A DNA stretch of 64,000 bases from Flavobacteriales bacterium (lineage in GTDB: Bacteria > Bacteroidota > Bacteroidia > Flavobacteriales_D > Crocinitomicaceae), in NCBI GenBank assembly GCA_022361195.1, contig JAKSBJ010000178.1:1-64000 (forward strand). Reading direction: 5' to 3'. Both the position numbers and the translations under genes were made by a program. Positions 32,130-37,193 of the stretch are shown here, piece by piece; position 1 is the stretch's first letter, and every line of letters starts with the position of its first letter. The notes beneath the pieces were generated by a model. It searched no databases. It saw only the letters and a program-made list of their open reading frames with translations, and was not told the DNA's origin.

Positions 32130-35100
32130 ATGTCGCAACCTAAGAAATTTGGAACATTTGCCGGAGTTTTCACTCCATCTATCTTAACCATTTTGGGGGT
32201 TATCATGTACCTCCGTATGGGATGGGTAGTGGGAAATGCTGGTTTGATTGGAACCATCTTAATCATTTTGGTGGCGCACATCATTTCCGTTTCTACGGGG
32301 TTGAGTATTTCTTCCATCGCGACAGATAAAAAGGTTGGAGCAGGGGGAGTCTATTATGTACTTTCTCGTTCGTTAGGACTTCCTATTGGTGGTTCACTCG
32401 GTTTAGCTTTATTCGTGGCAACGGCCTTTAGTATAGCACTCTACATGGTCGGTTTCGCTGAAATATTCAATGAGTACATAGGCTATGGATATGAGTTGGA
32501 CGCGGATGGTAAATTGATTCAGAGTGAATTTTATAAGGATAGTTTACGAATTACGGGAAGTATAGGCTTGCTGCTGTTAACGGTACTAGCTTTCATCAGT
32601 ACTTCAATCGCCTTAAAGTCTCAATATTTCATTTTGGCGGCAATCGGACTTTCGTTAGTTTCCATTTTCTTCGGGGACGGTTCTATTTCACATGAATTAG
32701 CGGATACTACCTGGAATGGTGAAACTGCTGGTTTCGCAGCAGTATTTGCTATTTTCTTCCCGGCGGTGACGGGATTTACTGCTGGAGTTGCTATGTCAGG
32801 TGATTTACGCGATCCAAAAAAATCTATCCCATTTGGGACTATTGCTGCAATTGCTGCTGGATTGGTGGTTTACATGATTTTGGCCGTATTCATTTATTAT
32901 AAGCTTGATCAGGAAACTTTATTGACCAATTCCAAAGCGCTATTCCAAATGGCAGCCATTGGTTTATTGGTTTACATTGGGGTTTGGGGAGCTACGTTAT
33001 CTTCAGCCTTGGGTGGAATTTTGGGTGGACCAAGAATTCTACAGGCGATGTCTATGGACAAAATAACGCCAGCTATATTCGCAAAAGGAGTAGGGCAGGG
33101 TAATGAACCTCGAAACGCATTAATCTTAACGGTTATTATTGCTGAGGCGGGGATTTTAATTGGAGACTTAAACATTATTGCTGAAGTCGTTTCCATGTTC
33201 TATCTGGCGGCTTATGGATTCATAAATCTTTCTTTCTTTTTAGAAAGCTGGGCAAGTTCTGACTTTAATCCAACCTTTAAGGTTAAAAAGTGGATTGGTT
33301 TAATTGGATGTATTGCCACCTTCGTTATTATGTCACAGCTGAACTTGCCAGCAATGGTGGCGGCATTTGTGATTATTAGTGGTATTTATTTTTACCTCTC
33401 CCGAAAACAAGTAGCTCTTGGAACAGGGGATATATGGCAGTCTGTTTGGTCGACGATTGTAAAGAAAGGATTAAAGCGAATGGAGGCCGGTTCGGATCAC
33501 AAACGAAACTGGAAACCAAATCTTTTGCTTTTTAGTGCTGATCAGGAGTATAGAACCAAAATGATTGAGTTCTCTAAAGCTGTTTCAGGACAAAATGGAA
33601 TCATTACCAATTTTGATTTGCATGAGAATCAGGAAGCAACTGTACTTTTTCCAAAAAGTAAAGAAACGGTTAAAGATGAGGAATTGGAGAAGTATGGAAT
33701 TTTTGGACGGAAATTGGAAGTTCAAAATGTCTTTAAAGGAATAGAAAGTATTGCTTGCACTTTTGGTTTTTCAGGAATTGAACCAAATACGGTACTAATG
33801 GCCTGGCCGGGTAAAACCAAAGATCCAATTTGGTTTGCCGAAATGACGCAGAAGTTGATCGACCTGGATTACAATGTATTGTACTTGGATTATGATCATC
33901 GTTGGGGATTCCGTAAAAAGGAAAAAATTGACTTGTGGTGGGATGGAGTGAGCAATAATTCTGAACTCATGTTGTTGTTGACGAAGTTTATCACTTCAAC
34001 ACCAGATTGGACACAAGCAAGTATTCGTATTCTTTTGATCAATGATACAAATGTTGACTATAAGATATTAGAGAATCGTATTCAGTATGTTGTTGACCAG
34101 TTCAGAGTTCAGGCAGAAATTAAAATCATTAATAACGAGGTAGATCAAAAAAGTACCTATGAATTAATGAAGGTTCACTCATCCGAGGCGGATTTAATTT
34201 TTGTTGGAATTCCGGAAATAGAAGAGGGAGGAACAAGAAGGTTTGTAGAGAAAACGAACAACCTTGTGGGGGTTATTGGAACGACACTTTTGGTAAAAGC
34301 ATCTTCTCAGTTTGATGAAACAGATCTAAAAGTAGAGCACATTGCTTTTAAAGATGAGAGTAAGAAGATTGAGCATACTGAATTACTTCCATTGAATAAG
34401 GTAGAGGATGAAGCCTTTAATAAAACCATTGTTGAACTTGATGTTCAATTGGATGAAATTACTGCAACGCTCATCAATCAATCGGTTCAATCAGTTGAAA
34501 ATTATCACCAAACGGTCTTTTCTAAGGTGACCGAAAAGATGGACGAATTCTTACTCCGTCTAAGTCAGGATAAAGAGGAAGAGGAGGAATTTGATTTACA
34601 ACTTTCTTTGCACAAGGTATTAACCGAAGTTCAAGAAATTTATGCCGACTCTTTAGAGAATCAATTACCATTGATAGAGGAGATGTTTACGGCTGAAACG
34701 GCGATCTACCTCAAAACAAAAGAAGAACTTTTTGGTTACCTACCAAATAAAGCACGTTTACAAACGGTTCGTAATGCCGATGGAACATTGGCTACCAAGA
34801 AGCGAAAAGTGGCTTATCGAAGTGCTATTCAAAAGTTGTGGTTGAGTGAAGGTTTAACGGAAACGCATCAGCAATTCTTAGAGTTTGGGTACAACAACAT
34901 GATTTTGTTGCATCAGAGTAAGAACATTCTTCATAATCGTATTTGGGAGTTTTTAGCGGCGGTAGATGATCAGGTTGAGTTGAAACAAGCCGCTTCTGAA
35001 TGTAAGCAAAAGCTGGATGAAGCTTTACGAGAAGTAAAGGAGGATGCGCTGAATTTGGCTTCTAACTTTTATCGTAATCTCAGAAATAACGAACGGGATA

Positions 35101-37193
35101 ATCTCAACGAATTGGGTGAAGTTATTTTAGATCCTGCTTACCGTAAACGATTATCCGAAAAATATCCGGTTCAAACCAATAAACAATTGCTTAGCAGCCG
35201 TAATGGAATTTTGAACTTCCCTGGTTATTGGTACAGAAACTTAATCCTCTTTACGTATCATCTTGAGGCTGATATTTATTTGATTCAGCTTTCAGCTCAA
35301 ATGCAAGATTTTACAAAGGAGTTGAATCATTATACCACAGAGCAGTATTTAGATAAAATTGAGCAGAATCTCGGGCATTTAAACAATGAGATTGAAAAGT
35401 TAGAGCTTAAAATCGGCAAAAAGGATGTGGATGCTATTTGTGCAACACATGTACAGCTGTCAGAGGAGATTTTCTTTAATTCGGAATACATCATTTCTCA
35501 TATTGTTGATTCAGCAGCTAAAATGCTAGAATTTATTCCAGATGAAATTGAATTGATGACTGCTAACTCCATCAATAACATTCGAGAAAGTCAGGGAAGC
35601 GAAATTAAAACTGAAAAGTTAGCGCTGAAGGATATTACAGATTATTTGTCCAATGTTCACTTCCTGGACCCGGTACATGAGAAAATTCAGGTTTTCTATG
35701 ATCAACTTAAACGATCGTTAGGGAAATTGATGAATGCTGCATTGCTTATTCAGAATGGAATTGACAGTTATGCAACCAATAATAAGCTGGAATCTTTAAC
35801 GGAATTATTGGAGCAGGCAAAATCTGAGATTCATTATGCTGAGTCTGATATCCAGACGGCAGTTGAAGGTTTCCGAACAGAGTTGAGAGATCGTAAGGAG
35901 CTTCTCCGAAAAGAGTTGGATATCAATCAAATTATTGAGCAAATTGAGTCCTTGACCCAATACGTTAAGAAACAAAAACGCCGTAATTTGGTAGCAGAAT
36001 CTGTTCAGCGTGCCAATAAAACAGCTGGAAAAAACATTAGAAAAGCACTGAATTATTTTATTGCAAAACAGCAAGATATTTCAGCCATCGAGTATAAAAG
36101 TGGATTTGAGCATGTGATTAGTGAACAAGGAACCATTGGCGACTTTGTTCAGCAAATCAGCCAAAAAGCGGATTTACCGTTTTACTATCAGCAATTGTTT
36201 CTCGGAGCCCATTATTCCGAAAGTCAAATAGAAGGAAATCGCAAGGCGGAAATAACAACCATTCAATCTGCCGTTAAGCGAATTGAAGCTGGAGCTTCTG
36301 GAGCGATTTTGATTTTAGGAACAGCATCTAGCGGAAAATCCTATTTGACAAACCATGTTGCGGGTCATATTCTTAAAAATAAAACCTTCCAAATTCAACC
36401 TCTACTGAATAAAACATGGAAGAAAGAAGATTTAACAAAGGCCTTCCAAAGAGCTTGTCGCAGTAATGATAGTTTGACAAAAATCATGAATAACTTACCT
36501 GAAAAATCAGTTTTTGTTTTTCATGACCTGGAACAGTGGTGGGTTAAATCTGAACAAGGAATTAGCCTTATGGCTGAGCTTGAAAAATTGATAAAACGAT
36601 TTGGTTCTAAACATTACTTTGTGCTCAATGCAAACATTTATGCTTACAATCAAATCCGTCAGCATACTCACCTGCAGTCACAAATTATTCAAACAGTTGT
36701 TTTACCTCCATTGTCGGCCTCGCAAATTCGAGACATCATATGGTCACGTCATTTAACCGGTGGTTTACAAATCAATGTGAATGGCGTAAACGAAAAACAT
36801 CTTTCTGCAAACAAAATCAATAAGTTCTTAAGCCGCTTTTATAATAGTTCAGGTGGAAATGTTGGTTTGGCCTTGCAGCAATGGATTGCAAGTATTCAAC
36901 ACATGGATGAAAATGAGTTATTCATGGACATTCCACTAAAAAGAGATTTTCCTGATTTGAAAAAGACTGAGTGGAAAAACATGATCTATCAAATTTTTAT
37001 TCATCATAATTTAACAAAAGAAGAACTCTATAAAATTTACGGAAAAGGAAACGAAAATTGGATTAATCGAACTTTAGAGGCATTGGTTTCATCTACCATG
37101 CTGGCTATAAATGAACGTGAAGGTTATTACCTTAAAAAAGAGGTGAAGCCTTATGTAGAAAATTGGTTATATGAACTCGGATTTATCAAATAA
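32130..37193 (+). CDS. Cation-chloride cotransporter (SLC12-like) fused to coiled-coil region, P-loop ATPase and winged-helix-like end
   Basis: A 1687-residue fusion. Residues 1-440 form an APC-type permease core with TPSILTILGVIMYLRMGWVVG, the signature of Na-K-Cl/K-Cl cotransporters, and about 12 hydrophobic segments. Residues 450-750 match the SLC12 cytosolic domain (RNWKPNLLLFS, GIEPNTVLMAWPGK, IDLWWDG). Residues 750-1350 are long charged helices. A P-loop ATPase follows: Walker A GTASSGKS at 1397-1404, Walker B VFVFHDLE with D1466, and GGNVGLALQQW. The last 80 residues look winged-helix-like. The C-terminal half may sense or regulate transport. Its end overlaps the MscS-like gene. Confidence 0.88.
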   Translation: MSQPKKFGTFAGVFTPSILTILGVIMYLRMGWVVGNAGLIGTILIILVAHIISVSTGLSISSIATDKKVGAGGVYYVLSRSLGLPIGGSLGLALFVATAFSIALYMVGFAEIFNEYIGYGYELDADGKLIQSEFYKDSLRITGSIGLLLLTVLAFISTSIALKSQYFILAAIGLSLVSIFFGDGSISHELADTTWNGETAGFAAVFAIFFPAVTGFTAGVAMSGDLRDPKKSIPFGTIAAIAAGLVVYMILAVFIYYKLDQETLLTNSKALFQMAAIGLLVYIGVWGATLSSALGGILGGPRILQAMSMDKITPAIFAKGVGQGNEPRNALILTVIIAEAGILIGDLNIIAEVVSMFYLAAYGFINLSFFLESWASSDFNPTFKVKKWIGLIGCIATFVIMSQLNLPAMVAAFVIISGIYFYLSRKQVALGTGDIWQSVWSTIVKKGLKRMEAGSDHKRNWKPNLLLFSADQEYRTKMIEFSKAVSGQNGIITNFDLHENQEATVLFPKSKETVKDEELEKYGIFGRKLEVQNVFKGIESIACTFGFSGIEPNTVLMAWPGKTKDPIWFAEMTQKLIDLDYNVLYLDYDHRWGFRKKEKIDLWWDGVSNNSELMLLLTKFITSTPDWTQASIRILLINDTNVDYKILENRIQYVVDQFRVQAEIKIINNEVDQKSTYELMKVHSSEADLIFVGIPEIEEGGTRRFVEKTNNLVGVIGTTLLVKASSQFDETDLKVEHIAFKDESKKIEHTELLPLNKVEDEAFNKTIVELDVQLDEITATLINQSVQSVENYHQTVFSKVTEKMDEFLLRLSQDKEEEEEFDLQLSLHKVLTEVQEIYADSLENQLPLIEEMFTAETAIYLKTKEELFGYLPNKARLQTVRNADGTLATKKRKVAYRSAIQKLWLSEGLTETHQQFLEFGYNNMILLHQSKNILHNRIWEFLAAVDDQVELKQAASECKQKLDEALREVKEDALNLASNFYRNLRNNERDNLNELGEVILDPAYRKRLSEKYPVQTNKQLLSSRNGILNFPGYWYRNLILFTYHLEADIYLIQLSAQMQDFTKELNHYTTEQYLDKIEQNLGHLNNEIEKLELKIGKKDVDAICATHVQLSEEIFFNSEYIISHIVDSAAKMLEFIPDEIELMTANSINNIRESQGSEIKTEKLALKDITDYLSNVHFLDPVHEKIQVFYDQLKRSLGKLMNAALLIQNGIDSYATNNKLESLTELLEQAKSEIHYAESDIQTAVEGFRTELRDRKELLRKELDINQIIEQIESLTQYVKKQKRRNLVAESVQRANKTAGKNIRKALNYFIAKQQDISAIEYKSGFEHVISEQGTIGDFVQQISQKADLPFYYQQLFLGAHYSESQIEGNRKAEITTIQSAVKRIEAGASGAILILGTASSGKSYLTNHVAGHILKNKTFQIQPLLNKTWKKEDLTKAFQRACRSNDSLTKIMNNLPEKSVFVFHDLEQWWVKSEQGISLMAELEKLIKRFGSKHYFVLNANIYAYNQIRQHTHLQSQIIQTVVLPPLSASQIRDIIWSRHLTGGLQINVNGVNEKHLSANKINKFLSRFYNSSGGNVGLALQQWIASIQHMDENELFMDIPLKRDFPDLKKTEWKNMIYQIFIHHNLTKEELYKIYGKGNENWINRTLEALVSSTMLAINEREGYYLKKEVKPYVENWLYELGFIK

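Follow-up and report, generated by a model that had tools for sequence, protein, structure and literature searches.

We describe here a bacterial gene in which a cation-chloride cotransporter (CCC) continues, within a single polypeptide, into a long helical region, an Orc/Cdc6-like AAA+ ATPase and a winged helix. This architecture is conserved among Bacteroidota, a gene encoding an MscS-like membrane protein constantly lies next to it, and the module formed by the helices and the ATPase occurs, in the same polypeptide or as a neighboring gene, with members of three unrelated families of ion transporters, namely CCC, CPA/NHE and TrkH. Because these three families recur with it, we conclude that the module has some part in ion transport, a conclusion considerably more secure than the detailed mechanism that we propose below. 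The gene lies in a stretch of 64,000 nucleotides from a Flavobacteriales bacterium (contig JAKSBJ010000178.1), called the window in the following; its features are collected in Table 1. The original prediction, made from the letters of the window, had recognized the fusion, but its reading left out the constant MscS-like partner and the wider system.

One open frame from cotransporter to ATPase

The frame runs without interruption from the ATG at 32130 to the stop codon at 37191-37193, as expected for the continuous protein of 1687 residues that had been predicted. The same fusion is present as a single open frame of 1633-1735 amino acids in 23 further loci, making 24 loci in all, with identities down to about 32%. 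Complete fusions in one open frame occur in 12 of the 60 genomes surveyed from the family and the order, and eight more loci were retrieved (L038 is cut by a contig end, L040 is complete), the additional, more distant ones being found elsewhere in the class and phylum. Since one open frame recurs in 23 other loci, the fusion is neither a chance joining of frames nor an assembly error, and the homologue search, with its 24 fused loci, disposes of the idea of a single-genome artefact with separate genes in the relatives. Conservation differs strongly along the protein: the mean column identity among the fusions is about 0.5-0.87 over residues 1-720 versus 0.28-0.48 over residues 761-1687, and the transporter half is thus far better conserved than the module. 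The locus is single-copy, its gene order is conserved within the family, and it is surrounded by housekeeping or core genes (aconitase, with gyrB further off).

Table 1. Features of the fusion gene and of its partner gene in the window.
Feature	Coordinates	Strand	Basis
Entire fusion frame (CCC, helices, AAA+ ATPase, winged helix), 1687 aa	32130..37193	+	Same open frame in relatives
CCC transmembrane domain (LeuT/APC fold family), residues 1-470	32130..33539	+	Pfam AA_permease, PDB NKCC1/KCC chains (E about 1e-65)
CCC cytosolic domain, residues 471-745	33540..34364	+	NCBIfam 2a30 match reaching residue 684; Pfam SLC12 E 0.001
Tyr105, equivalent to K+-site Tyr383 of human NKCC1	32442..32444	+	Alignment; invariant in 22/22 fusions
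Ser291-Ser292, equivalent to Na+-site Ser613-Ser614 of human NKCC1	33000..33005	+	Alignment; invariant in fusions
Long-helix region, residues 751-1349	34380..36176	+	AlphaFold2 model (pLDDT mostly 80-95) with helices of 40-80 residues
AAA+ ATPase core, Orc/Cdc6-like, residues 1350-1599	36177..36926	+	AAA_16 match, model, fold alignment
Walker A GTASSGKS, residues 1397-1404	36318..36341	+	Motif alignment
Walker B D1466-L-E1468 (in VFVFHDLE)	36525..36533	+	Motif alignment
R1540-H1541, the pair best conserved in the module (R 69/70, H 62/70)	36747..36752	+	Family alignment
W1585, kept in 69/70	36882..36884	+	Family alignment
Winged-helix C-terminus, residues 1600-1687	36927..37190	+	Helices plus two short strands in the model, alignment with the C-terminal part of ORC2
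MscS-like membrane protein, 253 aa	37171..37932	+	Pfam MS_channel_2nd E 5e-12; AlphaFold2 fold; adjacency

A cotransporter with the ion-site residues of NKCC1

Three independent libraries identify residues 1 to about 745 as a CCC, which bears out the SLC12-like permease with its cytosolic domain proposed at the outset. The NCBIfam K-Cl cotransporter family 2a30 matches residues 3-684 (E 1e-112; 378 bits, below the curated cut-off of 953), Pfam AA_permease matches the transporter half with an E of 6e-48, and the PDB matches are chains of KCC4, KCC3 and NKCC1 (E about 1e-73 to 1e-60). The transmembrane domain contains 11 hydrophobic segments, and the cytosolic domain displays 29-81% identity among the fusions. 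In human NKCC1, Tyr383 has a role in the K+ site (PMC7035313) and Ser613-Ser614 are the serines of the Na+ site, for which the KCCs have Gly-Ala (PMC7200160, PMC7035313). The corresponding residues of the fusion, Y105, S291 and S292, do not vary among the 22 fusions and nine stand-alone CCCs, and neither do P211, T214, A288 and Y362, the last of which is the TM10 tyrosine of the Cl- site, assigned by position only. Given that both the K+-site tyrosine and the Na+-site Ser-Ser pair of NKCC1 are present and invariant, a Na-K-2Cl stoichiometry is predicted for the fused CCC. Animal CCCs have a role in cell-volume regulation (PMC7200160), and this would fit an osmotic role for the fusion.

In the tree of CCCs, the 22 fused proteins fall on one side of a branch with an SH-aLRT support of 100, which is consistent with one fusion event, retained across large distances. 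The same order also contains stand-alone bacterial CCCs of 740-780 amino acids, which branch outside this clade. To our knowledge, no known CCC carries an ATPase.

Long helices and an Orc/Cdc6-like AAA+ ATPase

Residues 751-1687, modelled with AlphaFold2 from nine sequences (mean pLDDT 83), display the roughly 600 residues of helices that had been predicted ahead of the ATPase; in this model the long helices sit N-terminal to the ATPase, and the winged helix is the last element of the protein. The ATPase portion of the model resembles the archaeal (A. pernix) ORC2 (Z 18.3, rmsd 4.7, 318 residues, 13% identity), and residues 1371-1417 match Pfam AAA_16 with an E of 3e-6, slightly below the Pfam cut-off. 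The match to nSTAND3 is weaker than the one to AAA_16, with 20.2 bits for a Pfam cut-off of 27.2. The assignment to "STAND/AAA-type" ATPases made in the original prediction is therefore roughly right, the best match being an AAA+ ATPase of the Orc/Cdc6 type and not a classical STAND ATPase. Walker A and Walker B are located where it had placed them. The C-terminal region thus holds an AAA+ core followed by the anticipated winged helix, which aligns with ORC2, rather than a non-ATPase fold. Pfam searches with the helical region alone gave chance-level matches only, and the matches from PDB fold searches with the module model were dominated by the ATPase part, not by the helices. The helical region evolves fast, with a mean column identity of about 0.28-0.47 across the fusions.

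The best-kept residues of the module are Y1353, R1540, H1541, G1545, N1577 and W1585. Of 70 module members, 46 have the P-loop lysine and 24 lack it, and the strict Walker A pattern GxxxxGK[ST], found in the window, is failed by 30 of the 70 relatives. Since the lysine is missing in so many relatives, nucleotide hydrolysis may be dispensable in parts of the module family. Among the CCC fusions, the lysine is kept in 20/22 (that of the window included) and the Walker B glutamate in 21/22. Two CCC fusions, L039 and L040, have a destroyed P-loop (GNEGSCYL and GCMGSGYS, respectively) and intact ion-site residues; they represent a natural test of the need for ATP binding.

A constant MscS-like partner

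A gene for an MscS-like protein lies directly downstream of the fusion in all 24 CCC-fusion loci. In the window its first 23 bp overlap the end of the fusion gene, and translational coupling of the two overlapping genes is probable. Its product matches PF00924 with 46 bits (cut-off 20.2), its AlphaFold2 model contains three transmembrane helices, and its best Foldseek matches all belong to the MscS family. Glycine and alanine packing in TM3 is central to the gating known for MscS. This canonical glycine/alanine pore signature is absent from the partner in the window and from 33/33 partners of transporter-linked modules, and it is present in 26/27 MscS proteins that accompany modules with no transporter linked to them. 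The absence of the signature from the transporter-linked partners suggests that these act as a sensor rather than as a valve. The loss of the signature maps to one or two events in the tree and the test for independence left 2 pairs, which is too few; we therefore regard pore loss with transporter linkage as a suggestive pattern and not as an independent correlation.

The module across Bacteroidota and with other transporters

With a profile of the ATPase domain, relatives were detected in 76 of 395 Bacteroidota genomes. In 40 of the 51 loci without a CCC, the immediate neighbor on the same strand is an MscS-family gene (31 downstream, 9 upstream), although adjacency counts from related genomes partly reflect shared descent; the occurrence of both arrangements indicates that the pairing survives changes in gene order. 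A short membrane protein occupies the MscS slot in two others (L087, L137), and the remaining nine consist of six loci of the family f35 plus L129, L151 and L152. Most modules outside the CCC fusions are accompanied by MscS only, with no linked transporter. Those that are linked to one show several arrangements. In three loci (L083, L136, L138) the order is ATPase, MscS-like protein, PF00999 exchanger, and in L087 and L137 it is ATPase, short membrane protein, PF00999 exchanger, while in L073 such an exchanger is convergent with the module. In six loci (L123-L128), the ATPase protein, of about 1498 amino acids, itself starts with a membrane domain, which Pfam recognizes as a PF00999 exchanger in L123 and L126 (E 4e-20 and 7e-20) and with which the others align. 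These loci thus encode a CPA Na+/H+ exchanger-ATPase fusion followed by genes for an MscS-like protein, TrkH and TrkA. Taking the CCC fusions and these PF00999 membrane domains together, the module is, as judged from family matches and alignment, fused to two unrelated transporter folds.

The operon of L123-L128 (e.g., L127:4021-13299) comprises five genes, as a 9-TM protein precedes the exchanger-ATPase fusion, the MscS-like protein, TrkH and TrkA; this 9-TM protein matched no Pfam family and is related to the fused exchanger domain by profile comparison. Another locus (L131:7065-11459, minus strand) encodes an ATPase of 1465 amino acids with about 11 N-terminal hydrophobic segments and with TrkA and TrkH upstream, possibly a third transporter fusion. 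In the g230 genomes (L140, L141 and others), the module consists of the ATPase domain only (about 300-450 amino acids) beside MscS, the long helices being lost or encoded apart. The genome of L170 carries a CCC-like frame of about 300 amino acids with an internal TGA (G436:C102:6839-7681), apparently a decayed cotransporter, and also a stand-alone module adjoining an MscS with the canonical pore signature.

The modules of family f35 (L077-L082, about 1122 amino acids) branch within the CCC lineage of the tree and have neither a CCC nor an adjacent MscS. A CCC was not found elsewhere in the six f35 genomes, several of which are incomplete, and the neighboring genes (IPP transferase, ketopantoate hydroxymethyltransferase) give no functional hint. 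We also considered that module-only genomes might hold the cotransporter elsewhere as a split gene, and found no support for this: a CCC exists in only some of them, at a distance or on another contig, and these CCCs fall outside the fused clade.

A putative control module and its alternatives

We tentatively propose, with confidence a little short of even and on the basis of guilt by association, that the module controls transport, with the MscS-like protein as sensor, the ATPase as relay and the transporter as output. The fusion would be a symporter of the Na+-K+-2Cl- type with a covalently attached regulatory module, forming one complex with the MscS-like protein, and the latter, having lost the usual pore signature, would report on the membrane, namely on its tension or turgor. 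This signal would pass through the helices and the Orc-like AAA+ ATPase, in a state set by nucleotide occupancy, to the cytosolic domain of the transporter, which would then be switched on or off, and the K+, Na+ and Cl- content and the volume of the cell would be adjusted. We infer the physical complex, the sensing, the direction of control, the NKCC-type stoichiometry and the nucleotide dependence from sequences and gene neighborhoods. The fused clade with its SH-aLRT of 100, the MscS-like neighbor in 24/24 loci, the MscS-family neighbor of 40/51 modules without a CCC, the exchanger fusions and operons with PF00999 and Trk genes, the invariant ion-site residues and the conserved setting among housekeeping genes support the control model, whereas the P-loop lysine missing in 24/70 modules (2/22 CCC fusions), the f35 modules and the many modules without a linked transporter weigh against it. 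The nucleotide-driven switch gating ion transport that had originally been suggested is thus favored as far as regulation of transport is concerned, as the module recurs with CCC, CPA/NHE and TrkH; a purely nucleotide-driven switch appears doubtful family-wide given the frequent loss of the lysine, even though most CCC fusions keep it. The sensor of K+ or Cl- that had also been suggested is a conjecture.

Four other explanations were weighed. The first, which we judge unlikely, is a push-pull pair of valves, in which the MscS-like protein would be a real channel releasing ions, the CCC would take them up and the ATPase would make the two mutually exclusive. The MscS fold of the partner model in the window speaks for it, as do the transporter-less modules, which adjoin an MscS with canonical pore signature in 26/27 cases and thereby make an ATPase-controlled channel plausible as the original form, but the signature is lacking in the partner of the window and in all 33 transporter-linked ones. 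Next in order, and unlikely as well, comes a structural scaffold, the helices and a degenerate AAA+ domain only clustering the transporter and the MscS-like protein with no nucleotide control. This would accord with the long helices of the model, with the lysine lost in a third of the family (24/70) and with the best conservation falling on R1540, H1541, W1585 and Y1353 instead of the catalytic residues; the CCC fusions, however, largely retain both the Walker A lysine and the Walker B glutamate.

It seems improbable that the ATPase energizes the carrier, turning a secondary into a primary transporter as proposed for ArsA/ArsB, in which a soluble ATPase joined to a secondary carrier has been implicated in energized As(III) efflux (PMC2963123) and which thus sets a precedent. 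The covalent fusion and the mostly intact P-loop of the CCC fusions (lysine in 20/22) could be read in favor of such a pump. Against it, the catalytic residues are less conserved than the structural ones and the P-loop lysine is often lost in the family, all Na+-site residues are kept, suggesting ordinary ion coupling, and Orc-type AAA+ ATPases act as switches in known cases. A defence or cell-death device, in which a STAND-like ATPase would sense phage and trigger a lethal ion flux, is very improbable: the ATPase weakly matches nSTAND3 and, in PADLOC, SngB and mad8, and the helical region evolves fast, but the PADLOC matches are marginal, the transporter half is strongly conserved with intact ion sites, and the locus is single-copy with the same gene order in the family. 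A defence island was likewise rejected, since firm matches to defence families were lacking and the surrounding genes are core genes.

Significance and comparison with known systems

The perception of turgor by bacteria and the adjustment of their K+ uptake are a long-standing open problem, and we know of almost no function assigned to bacterial CCCs. The locus ties a CCC, from the family that regulates volume in animals, to an ATPase and an MscS relative by gene fusion and operon, with an ATPase module common to unrelated transporters, and provides defined genes, residues and partners for tests of mechanical control over ion uptake. The recurrence of the module with unrelated ion transporters across the phylum points to an undescribed manner in which bacteria may control ion uptake, and if the control reading is true, these proteins would parallel, in bacteria, the regulated CCCs of animal cells. 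Going further, it is conceivable, if less likely than not, that the module represents a new class of system by which bacteria control their ion content and volume, in which the Orc-like AAA+ ATPase and the helices would take an MscS-derived signal and switch the attached transporter, with CCCs, CPA exchangers or Trk plugged in according to lineage. No description of the CCC–helices–ATPase layout was found in the open-licence literature, and one elsewhere is possible. Each part of the system belongs to a known family, and there is a fair chance that the system as such is a new class.

The fusion shares with the SLC12 family (NKCC1, KCC4 and prokaryotic CCCs such as MaCCC) the transmembrane and cytosolic domains and the ion-site residues of NKCC1; the known members stop after the cytosolic domain, whereas the fusion continues into helices and ATPase. 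With the Orc1/Cdc6-type AAA+ ATPases (and the related TnsC, AAA_16 and AAA_22) the module has in common the AAA+ core and winged helix, but it is joined to long helices and a membrane transporter, its identity to them is low (13%) and its lysine is often lost. The MscS-like partner has the three transmembrane helices, the beta-domain and the alpha/beta domain of the MscS family (MscS, YnaI, MSL1), from which the transporter-linked partners differ by the absence of the TM3 pore signature. The ATPase and carrier of ArsA/ArsB are unrelated to those of the fusion, are encoded by separate genes and have no MscS-like partner. What they have in common with the module is an ATPase cooperating with a secondary carrier (PMC2963123). 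TrkH/TrkA, encoded beside some of the modules, and KtrB/KtrA differ from the module in that the cytosolic part is formed by RCK rings there and by an Orc-like AAA+ ATPase with long helices here. In these systems a cytosolic nucleotide-binding part gates ion transport, as we propose for the module.
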